NCBI GenBank assembly: GCA_021201815.1
Contig: JAJQEC010000023.1
Coordinates: 1-38,441, forward strand
Source of the DNA: Candidatus Azobacteroides sp.
GTDB taxonomy: Bacteria > Bacteroidota > Bacteroidia > Bacteroidales > WRGA01
Length of the DNA: 38,441 bases
Reading direction: 5' to 3'
Shown piece by piece: positions 5,031-38,038 of this stretch. The notes beneath the pieces were generated by a model that did not search any database, was not told the origin of the DNA, and saw only the letters and a list, made by a program, of their open reading frames with translations. A program made the position numbers and the translations under genes. The first letter of the stretch is position 1. Each line of letters begins with the position of its first letter.

Positions 5031-5804
5031 ATGGCTGGTGTCAGACCTAAAAAACATTTGGGACAACATTTCCTGAAAGACCTGAATATTGCTTCCCGCA
5101 TCGCAGATACACTGGATATATTTCCGGATTTACCTGTGCTGGAAGTAGGTCCGGGAATGGGAGTGCTTACCCGCTTTTTACTGGAGAAGAGAAGAGACTT
5201 AACAGTTGTGGAACTGGACCAGGAATCGGTTTCTTACCTGAATATTCATTACCCTCAGTTAGCAGGTAAAACTATTGCCGGAGATTTTTTAAAATTGGAT
5301 CTTGGACAGATTATTCAATCTCCTTTTTGCCTGACGGGGAATTATCCTTACAATATTTCCAGTCAGATATTTTTTAAATTGTTGGATTATAAAAATTCTA
5401 TTCCCTGTTGTACGGGGATGGTACAGAAAGAAGTTGCGAAGAGGATTGCGGCTCCTCCAGGTAGCAAAACATATGGGATAACCAGTGTATTATTACAGGC
5501 ATGGTATGATATTGAATATTTGTTTACTGTGCAGGAGGATGTTTTTGATCCACCCCCAAAGGTAAAGTCTGCAGTTATACGTTTAATAAGAAATAATGTA
5601 AAAGATCTGGGATGTGATGAAAAAGAATTTAAAAAAATAGTAAAGGTCGCATTTAATCAACGTCGTAAGACCTTACGTAATTCACTTAAGAGTTTGCTCA
5701 GACCAGGTATTTCAACAGATCTTCCTATATTTTCTCTTCGTCCTGAACGTTTGTCCGTTGAGGATTTTATTTTATTAACTAATTATCTGAATAAAAATAT
5801 ATGA
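5031..5804 (+). CDS. rsmA: 16S rRNA (adenine1518-N6/adenine1519-N6)-dimethyltransferase RsmA (KsgA)
   Basis: RsmA dimethylates two adjacent adenines in the terminal helix of 16S rRNA during 30S assembly, using S-adenosylmethionine. With the ATG at 5031 the product is 257 residues and begins MAGVRPKKHLGQHFLKD, the canonical family start. An in-frame TTG at 5022 would add three residues and is less likely. The SAM-binding motif VLEVGPGMG is at 36-44 and the catalytic NYPY (NLPY in E. coli) at 104-107. The C-terminal FNQRRKTLRNSLK segment is also typical. Its stop overlaps the start of the next gene (ATGA), so the genes are translationally coupled with a YcxB-like protein and then mgtE. Confidence 0.95.
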   Translation: MAGVRPKKHLGQHFLKDLNIASRIADTLDIFPDLPVLEVGPGMGVLTRFLLEKRRDLTVVELDQESVSYLNIHYPQLAGKTIAGDFLKLDLGQIIQSPFCLTGNYPYNISSQIFFKLLDYKNSIPCCTGMVQKEVAKRIAAPPGSKTYGITSVLLQAWYDIEYLFTVQEDVFDPPPKVKSAVIRLIRNNVKDLGCDEKEFKKIVKVAFNQRRKTLRNSLKSLLRPGISTDLPIFSLRPERLSVEDFILLTNYLNKNI

Positions 5805-6394
5805 TAATAAAGACTACAGAAATAACGCAAAATGATATTTTCAGACTGCGGATAATATATTTCCGCGTATATAAACTTAAGTATTTGTTTGGAGCTGCTA
5901 TATTATTTGTCCTCTTTAATCTGGTAGCTTTTGCTTTAAAAGGTGAAGATTTATTGGGAAAAGAGTTTTTTATTTTTACTCTTTTATCCTTTGCTCTTAT
6001 TCTTTGTTTGCCATTATTAATAGGATTATATTATTATGTGGCAGGTAGAGTAAAAAAAGAAACGGTTGTATTTCAGCACCCTCTTACCTATATATTTACA
6101 GAAACTGATCTTCAGATTTCAGGTTATAAAACGAATACAACCTCAGATTGGAGTGATTTTTATAATTACATGGAAGATAAAAATGCTTTTTATTTGTTTA
6201 TTTCTTCTGTACAAGCATATATAATTCCTAAAAGATATTTTTCTAATGAAGAAATAAAGAATGTAAGGAATTTATTAGAGAAAAATGTAATAAAAAGGTC
6301 TGTAAAAGGGATACGAATAGTTACTTATATTTTCTCTGGTATCTTTTTCTTAGGATTTATAGCTACATTGATTTCCATTTTTCAGAATAATTAA
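5801..6394 (+). CDS. YcxB-like membrane protein
   Basis: The 197-residue product has two close hydrophobic segments near residues 28-47 and 56-78 and a third at the C-terminus (IVTYIFSGIFFLGFIATLISIF). Between them lies a soluble stretch with the features of the YcxB-like domain: a Trp in TSDWSDFYNYME, a beta-rich run, and IPKRYFSNEEIKNVRNLL near residue 145. Such proteins are poorly characterised. The start codon overlaps the rsmA stop and the stop is two bases from mgtE, so it is the middle gene of a tight operon. Family assignment is moderately sure; function is unknown. Confidence 0.75.
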   Translation: MIIKTTEITQNDIFRLRIIYFRVYKLKYLFGAAILFVLFNLVAFALKGEDLLGKEFFIFTLLSFALILCLPLLIGLYYYVAGRVKKETVVFQHPLTYIFTETDLQISGYKTNTTSDWSDFYNYMEDKNAFYLFISSVQAYIIPKRYFSNEEIKNVRNLLEKNVIKRSVKGIRIVTYIFSGIFFLGFIATLISIFQNN

Positions 6395-6396
6395 AT

Positions 6397-7743
6397 ATGG
6401 TTAATTTTAGTAAGGAATACATAGACCGTTTCAGTGAAGTAATTCTGCAGAAAGATGTGGAAGAAGCAAAAACGATGATTGCTGATTTGCATCCTGCGGA
6501 TATTGCAGAGCTTTACGGCCGATTAAATATTGACGAACGGAAGTTTATATATCTTCTTCTTGACGATGAAAAGGCAGCAGATGTTTTTTCGGAACTTGAT
6601 GAGGATTTTCAGAAAGAACTGGTAGAGGTGCTGCCGGTAGATGTGGTTGCCAAACGCTTCTTCGACAACATGGATACCGATGATGCGGTAGATTTGATCC
6701 GGGAACTGGACGAAAAAACGCAGGAGGAAATTTTGTCTTATATTGATGATGTAGAGCAGGCCGGGGATATCGTAGATTTGTTGAAATATGATGAAGATAC
6801 CGCCGGTGGAATCATGGGTACGGAGATGGTTATCGTAAATGAGGAATGGAGCATGCCTAAATGTTTGGAGGAGATGCGCAATCAGGCAGAAGAAATGGAT
6901 GAGATTTATTATGTCTACGTAGTAGATAGTGAAGAGCGTCTGAAAGGAGTGTTTCCTCTAAAAAAGATGATTACAAGCCCTTCGATTTCCAAAGTAAAAC
7001 ATGTAATGACAAAAGAGCCCATTTCGGTAAAAGTAGATACACCTGTGGATGATGTAATTAAAATAATTGAGAAATATGACCTTGTCGCATTACCTGTAGT
7101 TGATAGTATCGGAAGGTTAGAAGGGCGCATCACTATTGATGATGTCATGGATCGTGTAAGGGAACAGGCAGAAAGGGATTATCAATTGGCTTCCGGTATT
7201 TCACAGGATGTAGAATCAAAAGATAATGTCTGGATGCAGACATCCGCACGGTTGCCGTGGTTGGTGATTGGTATGATAGGAGGAATTACCAATTCTGCTA
7301 TTCTGGGGAAATTTGATAATAATTTTATTTTATATCCGGAAATGGCTTTTTTTATTCCTCTTATCGGTGGTACCGGAGGAAATGTCGGAATTCAGTCTTC
7401 TGCTATTGTAGTACAAGGACTGGCTAATAAATCCCTGAATATAAAAAATGTCTGGGGACAGGTATTTAAAGAATCTGCTGTTTCATTGATTAATGCCAGT
7501 ATTATCTCTCTGATCGTTTTTATATATAATTATTTCCGGATGGGACCGAGTGTCGTAACGACTTCTGTTTCCCTTTCCCTGTTTGCAGTTGTGATGTTTG
7601 CATCTATCTTTGGAACACTGGTGCCTCTAACACTGGAAAAATTAAAAGTGGATCCGGCTATTGCAACAGGCCCTTTTATTACAATATCAAATGATATTAT
7701 AGGAATGCTTATTTATATGGGAATTACACTAGCTTTATCATAA
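6397..7743 (+). CDS. mgtE: Magnesium transporter MgtE
   Basis: MgtE is a homodimeric Mg2+ channel in the inner membrane, gated by its cytoplasmic domains. The 448-residue product has the expected order: a helical MgtE_N domain (about 15-125, containing ADLHPADIAELYGRL), two CBS domains (about 135-255, with DDVMDRVREQAERD closing the pair), then five membrane helices from about 280 to the end. The pore-type sequence FFIPLIGGTGGNVGIQSSAI is present near residue 325, and acidic residues that sense Mg2+ are abundant in the N-terminal domain. It follows the YcxB-like gene after two bases, so it depends on the rsmA promoter or on one inside the upstream genes. Confidence 0.95.
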   Translation: MVNFSKEYIDRFSEVILQKDVEEAKTMIADLHPADIAELYGRLNIDERKFIYLLLDDEKAADVFSELDEDFQKELVEVLPVDVVAKRFFDNMDTDDAVDLIRELDEKTQEEILSYIDDVEQAGDIVDLLKYDEDTAGGIMGTEMVIVNEEWSMPKCLEEMRNQAEEMDEIYYVYVVDSEERLKGVFPLKKMITSPSISKVKHVMTKEPISVKVDTPVDDVIKIIEKYDLVALPVVDSIGRLEGRITIDDVMDRVREQAERDYQLASGISQDVESKDNVWMQTSARLPWLVIGMIGGITNSAILGKFDNNFILYPEMAFFIPLIGGTGGNVGIQSSAIVVQGLANKSLNIKNVWGQVFKESAVSLINASIISLIVFIYNYFRMGPSVVTTSVSLSLFAVVMFASIFGTLVPLTLEKLKVDPAIATGPFITISNDIIGMLIYMGITLALS

Positions 7744-28982: not shown

Positions 28983-29810
28983 TTAATGTCTTTCATTAAA
29001 ATAAGCCTTGTTATTTCCCGGACTGAATTCTAATTTTATAAAACGAACTAAACGGAGTGTTGAATAATCATTTACAATCATATACATTTCTGAGAATTTG
29101 CTATCCGATTGTGCCGAGAAAGAAGTTACTTTTTTCCCGGCATTGTAAGCATCTTTTAATTCATTCTGGGTGGTAATATTATCGTACTCATATTTGGTTA
29201 ATATAACTCCATCCGTTGAGAAATTTGCAGTGACAGCATCTTCTGCATTCCTTGTCCATGTGATTTCCATCGCGGTCCTGTCCGCAACAGCCTGGGAAGA
29301 GTTTTTATAAGTTATCGTGAAAGCTTGTGGTGAAGATAAAGGAGTATCTGTTGTTGCTGGTGGTGTAACGGAAGAGTGCTTTATTAGTAAGGTTTTTGTT
29401 GTGGTATCTCCGTTCTTAATACTTGCCACTACAACAATTCCAATTATATTATCCAAATATCTACTGACGACCGTATTAGTCTCCGTAAAGCGAAAGGTAT
29501 ATTCATTTTGGTTTGAATTCTTTACCTCGGTAAGGTCTTTTTTTTCTGCTAATAGCGCGCTGGTTTCTTGTCCATTATAGTTATAAACCACATACATTTC
29601 TATGGCATCTATTTTTTCTCCGTAAGGAGCTTTAATAGAGCCGGTAATTGCTTTTGATAATATTCCATTCGAAACAGTAATATCATTGTTATCAAAAGTG
29701 ATAATGGCTGCTCCCGCATTATTATCATTTTCATCACAACTTACAAAAAGGGGAATAGCCATAAGCATGGCAACTAGAAGTCTTCCAAATCTGGTTCTCA
29801 TAATCCTCAT
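28983..29810 (-). CDS. Lipoprotein of a two-member family (A)
   Basis: The 275-residue product has a lipoprotein signal with lipid-attachment Cys25 (IPLFVSC) followed by an acidic DENDNN stretch. Residues about 35-140 look like a beta-sandwich. The last 115 residues align with those of the lipoprotein encoded at 30538-31227: W-R-N pairs in ITWTRN, then FSTDGVILTKYEY, TSFSAQSDSKFSEMYMIVND and the closing KAYFNERH. No known enzymatic motif is visible and I do not recognise the domain. The protein probably sits in the periplasm or on the surface. A start at the internal ATG (Met4) is possible. It has its own promoter and terminator. Confidence 0.8.
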   Translation of the reverse strand: MRIMRTRFGRLLVAMLMAIPLFVSCDENDNNAGAAIITFDNNDITVSNGILSKAITGSIKAPYGEKIDAIEMYVVYNYNGQETSALLAEKKDLTEVKNSNQNEYTFRFTETNTVVSRYLDNIIGIVVVASIKNGDTTTKTLLIKHSSVTPPATTDTPLSSPQAFTITYKNSSQAVADRTAMEITWTRNAEDAVTANFSTDGVILTKYEYDNITTQNELKDAYNAGKKVTSFSAQSDSKFSEMYMIVNDYSTLRLVRFIKLEFSPGNNKAYFNERH

Positions 29811-30537: not shown

Positions 30538-31227
30538 TTAGTGGCGTTCCACAAAATATGCTTTATTAGCTCCGGCGTCAAAAGTTAAATCTACCATTTT
30601 TACAAGACGGTAGGTACCGGCATCATTTACAATAAAGTATTTTTCTGAAAAATTCGCATCTGATTTGGCAGTGAAAGATGCAATTTTGTTCGATGTACTG
30701 TCATATAATTCCTTTACTGCTTCTTTAGTCTGAAGCTGATTATATTGTACCTGAGTAATCTCTATGGCTACTGTTGAAAATTCTGCTGTGTTGGAATCGG
30801 TATTTCTACTCCATGTAATCCCCATTGCAGATGAGGGAAAGCCATCTTGTTCAGGACGTCCCAAATGGAATGCTTCTGCAGAAGTTAAAGCAGTTGTGGA
30901 TGCTTTTACCATTACCTGGATTACCTGAAATTTATTTTCCGCATCAGAAACGGTAAGAGAAGCTGTTCCTTCACCTATGGCGCTTATTACCACATTATTG
31001 CCACTGATACGAGCTGTTGCTACATCGTCATTATTTGTTACTACCTGATAATTACCATTACCTGACAGAATGGATATAGAAGCCGTTTCTCCCGGTTCAA
31101 GATCTGCCGAATAAGTTTCAAGGGTGAGATTGTATACATTATCATCATCATCATCACTGCTACAACTTGTAAATAACGATACAAAAAGAAATGAAAATAA
31201 AACAGAATTTACTAAATAATTCTTCAT
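30538..31227 (-). CDS. Lipoprotein of a two-member family (B) with Ig-like (BIG2-like) domain
   Basis: The 229-residue product has a lipoprotein signal with Cys22 (SLFTSC) and a run of Asp after it, often seen in Bacteroidota surface or periplasmic lipoproteins. Residues about 34-110 look like a bacterial Ig-like fold of the BIG2 type: LEPGETASISILSGNGNYQV, then ISGNNVVISAIGEGTASLTV. The last 115 residues match the C-terminus of lipoprotein A (ITWSRN, FTAKSDANFSEKYFIVND, closing KAYFVERH). The two genes share the C-terminal domain but have different N-terminal modules. The function of the shared domain is unknown to me. Confidence 0.8.
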   Translation of the reverse strand: MKNYLVNSVLFSFLFVSLFTSCSSDDDDDNVYNLTLETYSADLEPGETASISILSGNGNYQVVTNNDDVATARISGNNVVISAIGEGTASLTVSDAENKFQVIQVMVKASTTALTSAEAFHLGRPEQDGFPSSAMGITWSRNTDSNTAEFSTVAIEITQVQYNQLQTKEAVKELYDSTSNKIASFTAKSDANFSEKYFIVNDAGTYRLVKMVDLTFDAGANKAYFVERH

Positions 31228-31398: not shown

Positions 31399-32490
31399 TT
31401 ATTTTGCTTTAAATAACCATCGCGTTCCTACAAGTATTGTATGTGTATCGCTATTGTCTAATTGGCTGAATGAACCTTTAAAATCTGTATTAGAATACAT
31501 ATAAGCTGCATGAAAACGTAAATCTTTTGTATATTTATTTGTAAAAGGATAAAATTCTGCTACGGCTTGTATTCCCCAGCTTTCATAAGCAGTCATATCA
31601 AAACGCTTATCATGCCTTTTGTTCCAGGTCCCTTTGACAAAAGGCCTCCATTTTCCGAAGTTATATTTCAGATTGAGAGAAACAGATTGGTCTTCCACAT
31701 ATCTATATCCTAAGTCCGTATTATATACGATAGCACCGTAGTCTATATTCCGGTTTCCCAGATAATAATCTATTTCTGTAGTAAATTTCTCAATATTTAA
31801 TTGAGTTCCTAACGTTAGCCAGTTGTAGAATCTTTTGTTGCTATGTTGAAATATACCATATCCCCAACGGGTTCTTATTAATTCATTAAATAAATCTCCC
31901 TGCCACATGGCATTAAAAGCTAATGCTTTGTTTTTATATTCTTCACTGGCAAATTGGGGGGTATCAGAATTTACTACCTGTAAATTTATTATTTGTTTAT
32001 TGAATTTGTATGCCGCATTCACTCCGGTTTTATATCCGTCAAAATCCATATATACCATGGACGCCAGATAAACATCAGCCGGATTATAATCATTTTCGAA
32101 TGTGCCTATTTGTACCGATTGTTTTCCTACGGTGAATGTCCAATGCGTTCCGGCATCAAACTGAAGCCACGCATGGTCAATAGCGCCGGAATAACCTTCC
32201 CGGGGAAAAGCAGCCTGGCTTTTATTCAGGTTATGCCTTATCCGGTAGCGAATTCCCGGAACAACTTCACCGGTAAATAATAGTTTGATAGTTTTTCCGT
32301 CAAAGCCCAGTTCATCGTATTTGCCATCCATAAAACCGGCTTGCAGATCGATGCGGGTGTCAATAAATATATTTAACATAGTATCATCCCAGATCAGCCT
32401 TTGAAGTATATTTTCACTGTCTCTGAACTGGGCCTGGAGCTGGAAAGAAAAAAGTCCGGAGAGGACAAATAAAAAACAGATTTTTTTCAT
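31399..32490 (-). CDS. Outer-membrane porin (phosphate-selective porin O/P-like)
   Basis: The 363-residue product has a signal peptide (MKKICFLFVLSGLFSFQLQA) and then alternating beta strands typical of a 16-strand porin. Matches to the porin O/P pattern include FIDTRIDLQAGF, IRYRIRHNLNK, AWLQFDAGTHWTFTVGKQSVQIG and a terminal strand HTILVGTRWLFKAK. It would form a diffusion channel in the outer membrane. It lies 68 bases downstream of the asparaginase gene on the same strand, the last gene of the aspT-asdA-ansB run. A role in admitting asparagine or aspartate is inferred from context only. Confidence 0.82.
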   Translation of the reverse strand: MKKICFLFVLSGLFSFQLQAQFRDSENILQRLIWDDTMLNIFIDTRIDLQAGFMDGKYDELGFDGKTIKLLFTGEVVPGIRYRIRHNLNKSQAAFPREGYSGAIDHAWLQFDAGTHWTFTVGKQSVQIGTFENDYNPADVYLASMVYMDFDGYKTGVNAAYKFNKQIINLQVVNSDTPQFASEEYKNKALAFNAMWQGDLFNELIRTRWGYGIFQHSNKRFYNWLTLGTQLNIEKFTTEIDYYLGNRNIDYGAIVYNTDLGYRYVEDQSVSLNLKYNFGKWRPFVKGTWNKRHDKRFDMTAYESWGIQAVAEFYPFTNKYTKDLRFHAAYMYSNTDFKGSFSQLDNSDTHTILVGTRWLFKAK

Positions 32491-32558
32491 TTGTTTGTGT
32501 TTTTATAAGTAACAAGCAGTACCAGGAATTGTAATAAACTCCTGATACTGCGGAAAGA

Positions 32559-33629
32559 TTAGTATTCAGTGAACATCCGTTGTATTTCCTTATAATCTTT
32601 TGTTTTTGTAAGTGCAAGCATAAGTAATACCCGGGATCTGTATGGATTATTAAACCAGGAAGCAGAAAAACCTTGTTTATCATCATCTATTTCGTCCCAT
32701 TGAGTTGTAGGACCAGTCATGATACGTGAAGACCTTATAACTGCTATGCCCTTTTGTACCGCATTGTTTAATGCGTTTTCCAAGGCTGTTGTCAGGTTGC
32801 CGTTATCAACACCGGCAGATATGATTCCTTGTGCACCTGCCTCCACAGCAGCATCCACAAATAATGACGTGGCATTTGAATAACTTAAGACTATTTCTAC
32901 CCGTGGTAAAGAAGAAAGATTATGTATGTCAAATTCCGAATTTATTGTATGGCGTTTCAGGCTGGTACGTGTAAATATTGGCTTTCCATTGTACATATAT
33001 CCTAATGGCCCGTAATTCGGATTCTGAAAAGTACTGACACTTATCGTATTTGTTTTTGTCAGATCATCAGCTCCAAGAATACGGTCATCCATTACTACCA
33101 TTACTCCTTTACCTGCTGCAGCCGGGTCTGCTGCACAAGCTACAGCATTGTAAATATTTCTGGGACCATCTGCTCCGATTGCAGTAGAAGGACGCATTGA
33201 CCCTACCAGAATAACCGGTTTGTTGCTTTTTACGGTCAGGTTAAGGAAATACGCTGTTTCTTCCTGCGTATCCGTTCCGTGCGTTATTACTATGGCATTG
33301 ACATCATTTTGGTTTAACAATTCATTTACTCTTTTGGAAAGCTTCAGCCATACCTGGTCATTCATATCCTGGCTTCCTATATTTGTTACCTGTTCAGCCT
33401 TTATATTGGCAATATCACTAAGAGAGGGAACGGCACTTATTAAATCATCAACCGTAACTTCTCCGGAATGATAACTGGATCCTGTTGCAGAAGCTCCTTT
33501 TCCGGCAATGGTTCCTCCTGTTGCCAGTACATATACAGTGGGTTTCGTTTGTGCATGTAAGGAGCAAACGGAGATCACAAAAGTAATCAGAGCCAGAAAA
33601 AAGCTCCTTTTGTTTTTGAATGTATTCAT
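32559..33629 (-). CDS. ansB: Periplasmic type II L-asparaginase
   Basis: The enzyme hydrolyses L-asparagine to L-aspartate and ammonia. The 356-residue product has a signal peptide cleaved near residue 26 (ISVCSLHAQ), so it acts in the periplasm. All catalytic residues of E. coli AnsB are recognisable: Thr40 in ATGGTIAG, Tyr53, Ser86 in NIGSQDMND, Thr119-Asp120 in THGTDTQEET, and Lys192 in DLTKTNT. The final segment ALTKTKDYKEIQRMF also follows E. coli AnsB. It lies 19 bases after the aspartate decarboxylase gene and before a porin gene, so its product aspartate would feed the exchanger encoded at the head of the run. Confidence 0.96.
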   Translation of the reverse strand: MNTFKNKRSFFLALITFVISVCSLHAQTKPTVYVLATGGTIAGKGASATGSSYHSGEVTVDDLISAVPSLSDIANIKAEQVTNIGSQDMNDQVWLKLSKRVNELLNQNDVNAIVITHGTDTQEETAYFLNLTVKSNKPVILVGSMRPSTAIGADGPRNIYNAVACAADPAAAGKGVMVVMDDRILGADDLTKTNTISVSTFQNPNYGPLGYMYNGKPIFTRTSLKRHTINSEFDIHNLSSLPRVEIVLSYSNATSLFVDAAVEAGAQGIISAGVDNGNLTTALENALNNAVQKGIAVIRSSRIMTGPTTQWDEIDDDKQGFSASWFNNPYRSRVLLMLALTKTKDYKEIQRMFTEY

Positions 33630-33648
33630 TTTTTGAATAATTAGAATA

Positions 33649-35295
33649 TTATGATTTCTTTAGCGTACTTTTCCATGCTTCCACATATTCCATCATGGTA
33701 TGAGAGAGTTCACTACCAATAATCTGATAAGCATTGTCATCAAGGTTTGCGAGAGAAACACGTACTGACCATTCCGGGCCGGCAAATCCTCCTCCGTTTA
33801 ATAATACAACCGATGATTTTTCCGCAAGACGGAATACGATATCAACCGGTTCAAAGTTCTTTTCCAGGAATTTTATAAACTCTTTTCCATAATTTTTCAG
33901 TGCCCATTCATGTATATCAATGGTACAATAGTAGGCTGCTCTTTCCGGGTCAGGATAAATAGGAAACTCCATTCCATCCCAAAGCAATTTATACCGGTGG
34001 TGTAATAAATCGATATTATTTTGTTTGTAAATATTTCCGGTATCCAATAACGCAAAACCTGCAAATAGTAACATTTGAATTTGTTGAGGTGTAGATAATC
34101 CGGCAGTATGATTCAGTGCGACCTGACGACTGTCTGCTACAAGGCGGTCGATAAATTTGAGTTTTTTCGGATGTATCGTCAGACTTTCATATAAAGTAGC
34201 CATTTTTCCTTTTTCTTTTTCTGGTAATGCTGACAACATATCATCATAAATATTGTCTTCGTAAAGCGCAATTACACCGAGTCTCCATCCGGTTGCTCCG
34301 AAATATTTTGAAAAAGAGTAAACACAAAAGATATTTCTTGGTAAGTCATTCATCAATGAAGTAAATCCGGGAACAAAAGTTCCATATACATCGTCCGTGA
34401 GAATCATTAAATTCGGATTCAGGTTTTTTACTACCTTTATAAGGTATTTTTTACTGTCTTCCGACATTTCCACAGAAGTCGGATTACTGGGGTTTACAAT
34501 AAAAAATGCCTTGATAGATTTGTCCCCTAATTTATCCAGTTCCTCATCCGGATACTGAAAGTTTGAATTTCCGTTTTTGTCTTTTTCTGTTCCGTAAACA
34601 TAGGTTACTTTAAACTGATAACGTTCCAATTCCGGTATTTCCAGGTAAGGAGTAAAAACAGGTACTCCCAGTGCAATCCGGTCTCCTTTTTTCAATAACC
34701 GGTTTTTCATTAATGAGTCGAATATATAACACATAGCAGCAGTACCTCCTTCTGTGGCAAAGAGGTCATATTTTCCGGTTTTCTTCGGATTATTGCCACA
34801 CATTTCCTGAATAAGGTAATCATGGACAATTTTTTCTGTATGAGTAAGCATCCTTACGGGATCCGGATATTGATCTCCCACAATTCCTTCTGCCAGTTCG
34901 TGTACCCATTCATCAGCATTAAATCCATGTTTTTCTATTCCATAATTATATAACTTCTTGAGGAGGTCGATACCCGGTAAGTTTTTATTGTTTTTCAGGA
35001 AGTCCCGGAAACGCCTGGCAATGTCTTTTTTCTGGGGGATTCCTGCAATACCAGACGGGTTATTCATTACTCTTTTACATTCTTCTACTCCGAATTGTCC
35101 CAGCGTAAAGAAGGCTTCTCTGGGTACAGTCGCAGTCCAGTTCGGATTACCACGGCCGGCATTTAACATCGTTCTGACAGGTTTTTGCTGTTGTTCCGAA
35201 GCTAGGCTAATGAGATTGTCTTTTAATTCAAAAGGACTTAAGTGTTCTAACTCCTGTTCTCTTTTTCTTGTGGTTTTCAATTTTTCGATATCCAT
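33649..35295 (-). CDS. asdA: Aspartate 4-decarboxylase (bifunctional aspartate aminotransferase)
   Basis: AsdA is a PLP enzyme that beta-decarboxylates L-aspartate to L-alanine and CO2, consuming a cytoplasmic proton. The 548-residue product has the fold-type I aminotransferase layout and the family's unusually large size. The PLP lysine is Lys330 in YSFSKYFGATGWRLG. NPSNP at 268-272 and the Asp of LTDDVYG (301-302) contact the cofactor, and ATEGGTAAM (180-188) binds its phosphate. The N-terminal NAGRGNPNW (45-53) is characteristic of AsdA rather than ordinary transaminases. It lies 90 bases after aspT and 19 before ansB, in the same orientation. Confidence 0.95.
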   Translation of the reverse strand: MDIEKLKTTRKREQELEHLSPFELKDNLISLASEQQQKPVRTMLNAGRGNPNWTATVPREAFFTLGQFGVEECKRVMNNPSGIAGIPQKKDIARRFRDFLKNNKNLPGIDLLKKLYNYGIEKHGFNADEWVHELAEGIVGDQYPDPVRMLTHTEKIVHDYLIQEMCGNNPKKTGKYDLFATEGGTAAMCYIFDSLMKNRLLKKGDRIALGVPVFTPYLEIPELERYQFKVTYVYGTEKDKNGNSNFQYPDEELDKLGDKSIKAFFIVNPSNPTSVEMSEDSKKYLIKVVKNLNPNLMILTDDVYGTFVPGFTSLMNDLPRNIFCVYSFSKYFGATGWRLGVIALYEDNIYDDMLSALPEKEKGKMATLYESLTIHPKKLKFIDRLVADSRQVALNHTAGLSTPQQIQMLLFAGFALLDTGNIYKQNNIDLLHHRYKLLWDGMEFPIYPDPERAAYYCTIDIHEWALKNYGKEFIKFLEKNFEPVDIVFRLAEKSSVVLLNGGGFAGPEWSVRVSLANLDDNAYQIIGSELSHTMMEYVEAWKSTLKKS

Positions 35296-35385
35296 ATGTA
35301 TAGGTTTTTTATGTACTTATTTGACAACTAGAATATTAATATGTGTAAAAAGTAAAATTTGTCCGGACTTTTTCTTTTCCCCGGT

Positions 35386-37086
35386 TCAGCTCATTAATAA
35401 TACAATTACAACTCCCCATATGATCAGCAACGTATTACCGATTGCATATGTCGTCGTATAGGACAGGGAAGGAACTTTGCTGTGAATATTGTCTTGTATG
35501 GCACCTAAAGCGGCTGTTGTTGTTCGTGAGCCGGCACAGGCTCCTAATGTAATAGCCGGATTGAATTTAAATACAAACCGTCCTAGCATGAGTCCTACAA
35601 ACATGGGAACAATGCTGACAAAGACCCCTGCAATAAATAAACTTACTCCGGAAGCTTTTAGTCCTTCTATAAAAGCAGGTCCGGCAGTTATACCAACCAC
35701 AGCAATAAAAATATTTAATCCAAGATTATTCATTAACCAGATGGATGATTCCGGCACAGCACCGAAAGTAGGGTGTAGGGAGCGTAACCAACCAAATAGA
35801 ATACCCATAATCAATACACCTCCACTTGCGCTTAAGCTTAGAGGAATATTACCGGTTCTGAGAGTAAGACTGCCTAAAAGACCACCTAAGAAAATGCCTA
35901 AGCCTACATATAGAAGGTCGGTCACCTGAGTTGGTCGTTCTGCATATCCGATGTAGGAGGCAAAGCGGTCTACATCTACTTTCCTTCCTTCCAGTTCCAG
36001 GATGTCTCCTCTTTCTATTTTTACATTTCCCAATAAAGGTAGAGTGGTATTACCGCGGTGGATTTTACGAATTATAACTCCGTGACGTTGTTTAAGGGTT
36101 TTCAGGGAACGGAGCGTTCGGCCACTCATTTCCTTATTTGAAACAATTACCCGAAGAGATTCTGCTTTAAAATCTAATAATTCTATGTCTGCAACTTCTT
36201 CCCCGATCTGCTTTTCATCGCTTAATAAGGTATCTACCGGCCCATTAAAGACCACAATATCCCCCTTATTTATTTTAATATTCGGGGTTGGGTCCTGAAT
36301 AATTTCACCTTTCTTATTTCTTATTCTTTCAATATATACTGGCCAGCCATCTTTCAGAAGTGCTTTTTCAACTTCATCTACGCTTTTTTCCTGATTGAAA
36401 AAATCACTTGTGATTTTGAAAGCACGGAAAGTTGTTCCATCATATGCTTCTTCCAGGCTTGGGTCATCATCCCCAACAGCACCGCCTAAATTTTTTTCAT
36501 ATTCACTGATTTTCTGATCCACATCTTTTCCTAGTAATTTCGGGCCAATGGAAGATAAAAACCAGGCAGTCCCAGCTGTTCCGAAAATATAGGTTACCGC
36601 ATATGCGACGGGTATCTGGTTAATATATTCCTGTTTCTGGTCACTGCTGATAGAGAGTTGATTTATTGTATCAGTTGCTACTCCAATTACTGCAGAAATC
36701 GTGTTGGCTCCGGCTAATACTCCGGCTGCTTCACCAATTGAAAAGCCTGCAATCAATGCTGCTACCCAGGCCATAAGTAAACAACATGCACATACTATAA
36801 CTGCAAAAATAATCTGGGGAATACCTTCTTTTTTTAGACTGTGAATAAACTGAGGACCGACACTATATCCGACGGCAAATAAAAAGAGAAGAAAAAATGT
36901 TGATTTTACAGTAGGAGAGATATCAAAGTTTAACTGTCCGATTAATACTCCCATTAATAATACTCCGGTTACATTTCCCAACGAAAAACTTTTTATTTTG
37001 ATTCGCCCTACGGCAAATCCTAATGCAAGTGTTAGAAAAATGGCAAGTTCAGGAGCACTTTTCAGCGTTTTTATTATCCATTCCAT
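35386..37086 (-). CDS. aspT: Aspartate:alanine antiporter AspT
   Basis: AspT exchanges external aspartate for internal alanine across the inner membrane. Exchange is electrogenic, so together with AsdA it generates a proton-motive force. The 566-residue product has two blocks of membrane helices (about 10-185 and 385-566) around two TrkA_C/RCK_C domains (about 210-375), the hallmark of the aspartate-alanine exchanger family. Repeated GxxxG-type motifs (GVLAGANTISAVIGVATD near 131-148; LGACAGSRTTTAALGAIQD near 518-536) occupy the two halves, as expected of an internal duplication. It heads the minus-strand run with asdA, ansB and a porin. No clean sigma consensus is visible in the 298 bases upstream. 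Confidence 0.95.
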   Translation of the reverse strand: MEWIIKTLKSAPELAIFLTLALGFAVGRIKIKSFSLGNVTGVLLMGVLIGQLNFDISPTVKSTFFLLFLFAVGYSVGPQFIHSLKKEGIPQIIFAVIVCACCLLMAWVAALIAGFSIGEAAGVLAGANTISAVIGVATDTINQLSISSDQKQEYINQIPVAYAVTYIFGTAGTAWFLSSIGPKLLGKDVDQKISEYEKNLGGAVGDDDPSLEEAYDGTTFRAFKITSDFFNQEKSVDEVEKALLKDGWPVYIERIRNKKGEIIQDPTPNIKINKGDIVVFNGPVDTLLSDEKQIGEEVADIELLDFKAESLRVIVSNKEMSGRTLRSLKTLKQRHGVIIRKIHRGNTTLPLLGNVKIERGDILELEGRKVDVDRFASYIGYAERPTQVTDLLYVGLGIFLGGLLGSLTLRTGNIPLSLSASGGVLIMGILFGWLRSLHPTFGAVPESSIWLMNNLGLNIFIAVVGITAGPAFIEGLKASGVSLFIAGVFVSIVPMFVGLMLGRFVFKFNPAITLGACAGSRTTTAALGAIQDNIHSKVPSLSYTTTYAIGNTLLIIWGVVIVLLMS

Positions 37087-37300
37087 AAATTTCAGATTTG
37101 TTTATTTTTGTCAACATAATACAAATACAACAAAATATTTAATAGAATGTTCTGGGAAAATTTTTACAGGAATCAGAAAGGGATAGATAAACAGATAACA
37201 ATCAAAATATTGAAAAAAAGAGGGGGTTATGAAGAAAACCTAAGTCTTTGTGAGTCGAATATTTGAATATAGTTTTAGATACCCAATTACGAAAAAAACA

Positions 37301-37338
37301 TAAAAATGGAGTTGGTCCGACTTTAGGATCAACTCCAT
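37301..37338 (-). terminator. Terminator of the 37385-38038 lipoprotein gene
   Basis: ATGGAGTTGGTCC at 37306-37318 pairs with GGATCAACTCCAT at 37326-37338 (13 positions, one G-U or mismatch) with a seven-base loop. On the minus strand TTTTTATG and a longer T tract follow. It lies 46 bases after the stop. The rest of the 37087-37384 gap is AT-rich and presumably holds the aspT promoter. Confidence 0.8.
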
Positions 37339-37384
37339 AACTTTCTGGAATGTAGTTTTAAAAGGATTTATTTAAACAAGCATT

Positions 37385-38038
37385 TTAATAATTATAATTT
37401 CTTATAATTCCTTTCTCCTTTAGTTCTGTTACAATAGATTTTGAAAAACTTTCAGCCATGGATTTTGTTGAATTGGGATCATAACTTCTTGTTTGTGCCG
37501 AATATACTAATTCATCCCCGTCATTAATCGTATATATTTCAGCTTCCATAATATAATTTGTATTAGTTGTAAAATATCCGGGAGTATACATAGAATCATA
37601 TACTACAAGATACCGGCGGTAATATCGGTTATATCCTACGATTCGTGGGGTTGTATAACGGGTTCCCGGTGTATAATTCTGTTCTTGTTCTTTATCTATA
37701 AGAGAGATTATCATAACAGATGTATAAGAAGAGCCTTTTAATCTGTTTGTAACTTCTTCTTCTGTCAAGTCCTGAAACCCTTTAGGACCAAAAACACTGG
37801 TGGCAGACGTTGCGTTAACTCCAGCTTTTGTTAATTCCTGCACCATATTTTGCTCTACGGCATCCCTGTATTCTCTGTTTGCCATGACTCCTAATACCAA
37901 TACTTTATCCATAATATTGGCAGGTGGAGATGGTAAGCTCCAGGAAGAAATTACTTTTGTTGATTGACATGAAGTTATTAATAATATACCTGTTATAAAA
38001 ACCAGGCTTTTACTTATGATTGAATTTTTCTTTTTCAT
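37385..38038 (-). CDS. Lipoprotein, DUF4136-like
   Basis: The 217-residue product has a lipoprotein signal with Cys24 (ILLITSC) and a short QSTKVISSW segment of the type found in DUF4136-like proteins. The mature part has VLVLGVMANREYRDAVEQNMVQELTKAG (residues about 46-73), then a Tyr-rich middle (RIVGYNRYYRRYLVVYDSMY) and a beta-rich tail with AESFSKSIVTELKEKG. It may adopt an alpha/beta fold like other small periplasmic lipoproteins; no active site is evident. The upstream CDGSH gene is 15 bases away on the same strand, so the two are likely cotranscribed. Confidence 0.7.
   Translation of the reverse strand: MKKKNSIISKSLVFITGILLITSCQSTKVISSWSLPSPPANIMDKVLVLGVMANREYRDAVEQNMVQELTKAGVNATSATSVFGPKGFQDLTEEEVTNRLKGSSYTSVMIISLIDKEQEQNYTPGTRYTTPRIVGYNRYYRRYLVVYDSMYTPGYFTTNTNYIMEAEIYTINDGDELVYSAQTRSYDPNSTKSMAESFSKSIVTELKEKGIIRNYNY

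Follow-up and report, generated by a model that had tools for sequence, protein, structure and literature searches.

We analyzed a predicted cluster for asparagine and aspartate use on a 38,441-nucleotide stretch of DNA from Candidatus Azobacteroides sp. (assembly GCA_021201815.1, contig JAJQEC010000023.1), which we call the window. A first-pass annotation, made from the sequence alone, had described four genes on one strand, encoding a porin, the asparaginase AnsB, the aspartate:alanine antiporter AspT and the aspartate decarboxylase AsdA. Profile searches confirmed this description, with the products scoring over family cut-offs and the gene order being read on the minus strand. The features of the locus are listed below.

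37087–37384, minus strand: upstream non-coding region without an open reading frame (ORF), the presumed promoter of the cluster
35386–37086, minus strand: aspT, aspartate:alanine antiporter, 566 amino acids, predicted inner membrane (TIGR03802 equivalog, PF06826 twice, TrkA_C)
33649–35295, minus strand: asdA, L-aspartate 4-decarboxylase, 548 amino acids, a pyridoxal phosphate (PLP) enzyme, predicted cytoplasmic (TIGR03801 equivalog)
32559–33629, minus strand: ansB, type II L-asparaginase, 356 amino acids, predicted soluble periplasmic (TIGR00520)
32516–32551, minus strand: 15-bp hairpin in the ansB-porin gap (folding against shuffles; also found in the terminator scan)
31399–32490, minus strand: predicted outer-membrane porin of the Porin_O_P family, 363 amino acids, with a signal peptide (PF07396, barrel model)

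In the direction of transcription the order is aspT, asdA, ansB, porin, with intergenic gaps of 90, 19 and 68 bases. AspT exceeded the TIGR03802 equivalog cut-off (650.8 versus 546.95 bits), contains PF06826 twice together with TrkA_C, and matched the solved chains of Tetragenococcus halophilus AspT with a best E value of 1.2e-64. AsdA exceeded the TIGR03801 equivalog cut-off (798 versus 435.1 bits) and also matched a family described as bifunctional aspartate transaminase/4-decarboxylase. When its alignment with the L-aspartate beta-decarboxylase 3fdd was read, all of K17, R37, K315 and R497 of 3fdd, which we take to be the PLP lysine and active-site residues, were conserved; no signal peptide was seen in AsdA. 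AnsB exceeded the TIGR00520 type II asparaginase cut-off (448.7 versus 314.3 bits), and its best solved-structure matches were L-asparaginase 2. It fell below the cut-off of NF008304 (PRK11096, the Escherichia coli AnsB equivalog; 476.8 versus 506 bits), which makes it a type II enzyme outside that equivalog. Residues T40, Y53, S86, Q87, T119, D120, K192 and E313, which align with the catalytic residues of the E. coli enzyme, are invariant in 14 homologues. The N-terminus of AnsB is a hydrophobic Sec-type signal ending in SLHAQ and is similar in relatives; it was ruled out that AnsB is a lipoprotein, the N-termini being without a conserved lipobox Cys. The porin exceeded the Pfam threshold of PF07396 (51.7 versus 20.9 bits). 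No meaningful solved-structure relative of the porin was found by sequence, and a fold model was used instead: the AlphaFold model is a beta-barrel (predicted local distance difference test, pLDDT, 78.8), and Foldseek matched it best to outer-membrane porins, among them OprP, OprO and Omp32. The localizations given here are predictions from family membership, from visual inspection of the signal peptides and from this barrel model. In the 4.22-Mb assembly from which the window comes (100% complete), AsdA, AspT and AnsB are the sole proteins over their respective cut-offs, PF07396 has one further match, which is marginal, and no Dcu protein was found.

The four genes may form a single transcript. 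The hairpin in the ansB-porin gap has a folding energy of −22.9 kcal/mol (z −6.5; none of 200 shuffles was equally stable) and is followed by a weak T-run only, so that it is possibly a processing or stability element, or a partial terminator. In every tested relative whose gap before the porin is 50–200 bases long, that gap also folds strongly; the hairpins seen before the porin gene in L063, L064, L069, L078, L062, L079, L081 and the window are strong and mostly dissimilar. Because the hairpin recurs in this way, the porin may have its own expression level or be made from a processed transcript. Upstream of aspT, the nearest ORF (37385–38038) is lipoprotein-like, with none in between. The Bacteroidetes TTTG/TAnnTTTG pattern had no match upstream of aspT and no significant excess over shuffles, and sigma-70-type matches likewise showed no significant excess; since no Bacteroidetes-type pattern was found there, the promoter at 37087–37384 is a presumption.

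The arrangement is conserved among relatives. In a first sample of 295 Bacteroidales genomes, a TIGR03801 search at E ≤ 0.001 gave matches in 291 of 295, mostly ordinary aminotransferases, and only 16 genomes carried an AsdA over the TIGR03801 cut-off used; among these 16, the window's genome alone had ansB and the porin gene behind asdA. Close AsdA relatives in named genomes gave 22 loci. Fifteen of these have aspT-asdA-ansB-porin (14 on one contig, one split across two, L082 and L157), and the other seven have aspT-asdA-porin without ansB. A flanking gene is shared in just 6 of the 231 locus pairs. A constant core with changing flanks looks like a selected or transferred unit, and chance adjacency of the four genes was ruled out by the conserved order amid unrelated surroundings. 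The comparison of gene order that the first-pass annotation had put forward as a check is therefore in its favor. Several of the cluster-bearing organisms are, we presume, termite or cockroach gut bacteria. One locus, L078, is in a metagenome-assembled genome (MAG) in which aspT (5259–6959) is broken into two ORFs by a frameshift or sequencing error.

The asparaginase follows the cluster closely. In all 15 relatives with a clustered ansB, strong type II AnsB lies only inside the cluster, and six of the seven genomes with clusters lacking ansB have no type II asparaginase anywhere; the seventh (Tannerellaceae) has a separate AnsB (54%) beside another porin. Among the 25 porin-bearing clusters, 16 have ansB and 9 do not. 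These nine clusters, and the six genomes without a type II asparaginase, indicate that the partner of the porin is aspartate/alanine exchange and not asparagine as such. Judged from the gene content, the core would be porin, AspT and AsdA acting on aspartate, which AnsB would extend to asparagine.

To place these clusters in a history, we used a tree of AspT and AsdA together. The plain aspT-asdA pairs fall outside a single clade (support 100*) that holds all 25 porin-bearing clusters. In this clade, the three branches that split off first carry the porin and no adjacent ansB; ansB arises a single time, in the clade that follows (22 rows, 99*), and is missing again in six clusters that group near the window (98*). 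The 16 cluster AnsBs themselves form one clade (99*); within the set they are closest to AnsBs of family f93, of which two adjoin a DcuB gene. This pattern suggests a stepwise build-up, in which aspT-asdA would have gained first the porin and then, once, ansB, which would later have been lost in a sub-clade. The window's AspT and AsdA group with the clusters lacking ansB and its porin groups elsewhere, a discordance that is possibly a sign of recombination.

The clusters have also moved between species. The AsdA of an Apibacter MAG (Flavobacteriales, another order) shares 70–81% identity with the Bacteroidales copies, compared with 70–73% for RpoB; within the set, RpoB is on average the more conserved protein (mean identity 84% versus 80% for AsdA). 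The approximately unbiased (AU) test rejected both the placement of the Apibacter AspT and AsdA outside the Bacteroidales copies (p 1.6e-5) and the grouping of the Dysgonomonas copies as a single clade (p 0.0095). These results show lateral transfer of the cluster between species, including into the Apibacter MAG. The base composition of the cluster tracks each host genome, which argues against very recent transfers. The Apibacter MAG may contain a binning error; the length of the contig (155 kb) and the low G+C content of both cluster and flanks (33.6 and 32.0%) speak against it. In the same MAG, aspT-asdA-ansB-porin is immediately preceded by dcuB and aspA (L076, 2221–4982), so that both aspartate routes are adjacent.

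Similar assemblies were found in other lineages. Two Flavobacteria-like genomes (G439 and G728; same class, other family) have the order aspT-asdA-ansB-porin. Their AnsB is 47% identical to that of the window and their porin only 24%, and the porin branches with those of aspA/dcuB-type loci (100*). The porins of these two genomes and of the window's cluster were thus recruited separately. An Acetobacter plasmid (L205) carries aspT, asdA, a type II AnsB with a signal peptide and a barrel-like outer-membrane protein that belongs to an unrelated family, PF13557. On a Kozakia plasmid (L207), the asdA-AnsB-barrel part is annotated, from asdA onward. No paper was found on these two plasmid loci of acetic acid bacteria, whose role is possibly acid-related. 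No asparaginase was annotated beside the asp locus in 12 other plasmid asp loci (Bacteroidota, Pseudomonadota and Bacillota), and aspT-asdA pairs without any ansB are widespread. As read from these loci, the lineages in which aspT-asdA gained an exported asparaginase number at least two and probably three.

AnsB and the porin also occur together with other partners. In a survey of 393 Bacteroidales genomes, 21 had a strong type II AnsB, and a PF07396 porin was the next gene in 17 of the 20 that could be assessed. The pair adjoins AspT-AsdA in two genomes, DcuB, which exchanges C4-dicarboxylates including aspartate, in eight, and AspA or GltS elsewhere. Because the same AnsB and porin stand beside AspT-AsdA, DcuB or AspA, this front end is interchangeable, and the recurrence of an aspartate-handling system beside it is the best evidence for the pathway. 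The commonest arrangement of ansB in this sample is dcuB-ansB-porin, in some cases with aspA (L149, L150, L151, L153, L155, L184, L185 and L186; L216 is dcuB-ansB), and L154 and L187 have gltS in place of dcuB. Several loci contain aspartate ammonia-lyases that keep the GSSIMPGKVN signature, have an apparent Sec signal peptide and adjoin ansB and mostly the porin gene (L185 3262–4719, L186 3291–4751, L188 3619–5094, L189 6322–7794, L190 1845–3341, and probably L187 6093–7742). An exported aspartase is unusual, and at these loci the route from asparagine through aspartate to fumarate might be wholly periplasmic.

On this evidence, we consider it likely that the window encodes a decarboxylative aspartate:alanine cycle, formed by AspT and AsdA, that was extended by an outer-membrane porin and later by an exported asparaginase. 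In the proposed mechanism, the porin would admit asparagine and aspartate, and periplasmic AnsB would split asparagine into aspartate and ammonium. AspT would then take up aspartate with one negative charge in exchange for neutral alanine, and AsdA would convert aspartate to alanine and CO2 in the cytoplasm, consuming one internal proton. With one negative charge moved inward and one internal proton used, each turn would amount to the export of one proton, and the cycle would be expected to yield proton-motive force and some acid relief. AnsB would widen the substrate pool while the ammonium stays outside. Outside asparagine is thus probably turned into aspartate and then alanine for energy and acid consumption. 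A broader proposal, to which we give about even chances, is that an exported asparaginase and an outer-membrane channel were recruited independently more than once to the aspartate:alanine proton-motive cycle. The result would be a four-compartment, amide-fed module, laterally passed among gut Bacteroidota. Its porin would be a channel dedicated to aspartate and asparagine, and its swappable part would be the antiporter (AspT or DcuB).

The analysis shows the genes, their family assignments, the conserved order, the lateral transfer and the repeated recruitment of ansB. We infer the localization of the products, the direction of flux, the energy yield and the coexpression of the genes. A role in proton-motive force or acid tolerance would follow by analogy with the characterized AspT/AspD of T. 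halophilus, which generates a proton-motive force sufficient to drive ATP synthesis (PMC9508256). The first-pass annotation had proposed an asparagine-driven module encoded as a unit. Conservation, lateral transfer and repeated recruitment of ansB bear out the unit, and the asparagine step proves to be an add-on, given the clusters without ansB: the locus is a conserved, laterally moving module whose asparagine front end is accessory. The accompanying idea of acid tolerance has to be narrowed. Ammonia that AnsB releases in the periplasm takes up no proton from the cytoplasm; any such benefit would have to come from the decarboxylation step.

Several points weigh against this interpretation. 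Family names are no proof of substrate: succinate and glutamate exporters also belong to the aspartate:alanine exchanger family (PMC9527358). Residue R76 in transmembrane segment 3, for which a part in transport has been reported in T. halophilus AspT, is replaced by Ser in the window's protein. The same site is Ser in nearly all relatives read and S, K, G, E or Q in other AspTs annotated beside aspartate decarboxylases, and the loss of R76 was not taken to disprove the AspT identity, since this position is variable within the family and does not define it. The characterized AsdA of Lacticaseibacillus casei is only weakly active on aspartate (PMC6960285). For AspT/AsdA, a shared origin of the Flavobacteria-like assembly is compatible with the AU test (p 0.255), and expression of the porin could be separated from that of the upstream genes by the hairpin that precedes it.

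The same proteins might instead cooperate mainly in carbon and nitrogen scavenging, taking ammonium from asparagine and turning aspartate into alanine for overflow or biosynthesis, with effects on proton-motive force or acid as by-products. We regard this as unlikely. The ammonium released by AnsB is assimilable, asdA of L. casei stands beside a glycosyl-asparaginase gene and serves glycan-asparagine use (PMC6960285), and elsewhere the AnsB-porin pair accompanies DcuB, AspA or GltS, serving fumarate respiration or uptake and not a decarboxylative cycle. However, when these proteins are paired with a dedicated 1:1 aspartate:alanine antiporter, the carbon leaves the cell again as alanine, a wasteful way to assimilate carbon, and the prevalence of aspT-asdA pairs without ansB also argues against scavenging. 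Considerably less probable is that the antiporter exchanges something else, such as succinate or glutamate, and that AsdA is mainly a transaminase or a private source of alanine. The breadth of the exchanger family, the Ser at site 76 and the match of AsdA to the bifunctional family would fit this explanation; against it, AspT and AsdA both exceed equivalog cut-offs, their genes lie side by side in almost every relative and also in distant phyla, and site 76 also varies in the AspT of other operons. That aspT-asdA alone is the functional unit, with ansB and the porin gene as chance neighbors, accords with the absence of both behind asdA in the 15 other AsdA-bearing genomes of the first sample and with the hairpin that separates the porin, but is hardly credible and already contradicted by the porin in 25 of 25 clusters of one clade (16 with ansB) amid unrelated surroundings, by the parallel assemblies in Flavobacteria-like and Acetobacteraceae genomes, and by the succession of AnsB and porin in most assessable Bacteroidales genomes.

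Beyond the porin gene, the window contains two neighboring lipoprotein-like genes on the minus strand (28983–29810 and 30538–31227), whose products are 37% identical over 182 amino acids and have in common a C-terminal domain ending in KAYF-ERH; one weakly matches PF13629.

Energy cycles that couple decarboxylation to antiport are known as inner-membrane systems of two parts. The locus and its relatives show a Gram-negative extension of such a cycle to the cell exterior, with the channel added first and the amide-splitting enzyme later, and one front end plugged into differing antiporters across lineages. If the proposed mechanism is true, asparagine, whose depletion by gut bacteria is of medical interest, would be put to direct energy use, and the cargo of individual Bacteroidota porins, a long-open question, would become testable through gene context. 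No description of the four-gene set was found in the open-access literature on asparaginase with aspartate decarboxylase, the aspartate-alanine antiporter, Bacteroides or Acetobacter.

Known systems resemble the cluster in part. The AspT-AspD cycle of T. halophilus, encoded by a plasmid asp operon, uses the same antiporter and decarboxylase families; unlike the window's cluster, that operon is a two-gene set in a Gram-positive organism without an outer membrane, and its linked set has no porin or asparaginase. The Bacteroides glutamate decarboxylase (GAD) system (gadB-glsA-gadC, with a K+ channel) and the glutamine-dependent acid resistance of E. coli share the logic of a co-encoded amidase, decarboxylase and antiporter fed by an amide precursor (PMC8082179, PMC6250119). 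They handle glutamine, glutamate and gamma-aminobutyric acid and have no porin, whereas the window's set would handle asparagine, aspartate and alanine. Moreover, the GAD glutaminase is intracellular and its ammonia scavenges an internal proton (PMC8082179), whereas the window's AnsB bears an export signal; the cytoplasmic amidase typical of GAD/glsA-type acid resistance is thus not found here, and the likeness is in part only. In Campylobacter jejuni, secreted AnsB makes periplasmic aspartate that the antiporters DcuA and DcuB import (PMC4178425), much as AnsB and AspT would act in the window; however, the genes for AnsB, DcuA/DcuB and AspA are not described as one cluster, aspartate is converted to fumarate and not alanine, and there is no dedicated porin. 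The alf-2 cluster of L. casei joins asdA to the glycosyl-asparaginase gene asnA2, whose product frees aspartate from an asparagine conjugate, and mutants show that both genes are needed (PMC6960285); unlike the window's cluster, it acts on fucosyl-N-acetylglucosamine-asparagine through a major facilitator superfamily permease, and has neither AspT nor an exported type II asparaginase. The dcuB-ansB-porin loci of Bacteroidales (for example L149, L150, L151, L153 and L155) share with the window the exported AnsB family and a PF07396 porin beside an inner-membrane antiporter, but in these loci DcuB, sometimes with AspA, takes the place of AspT and AsdA, and the porin belongs mostly to a different branch.

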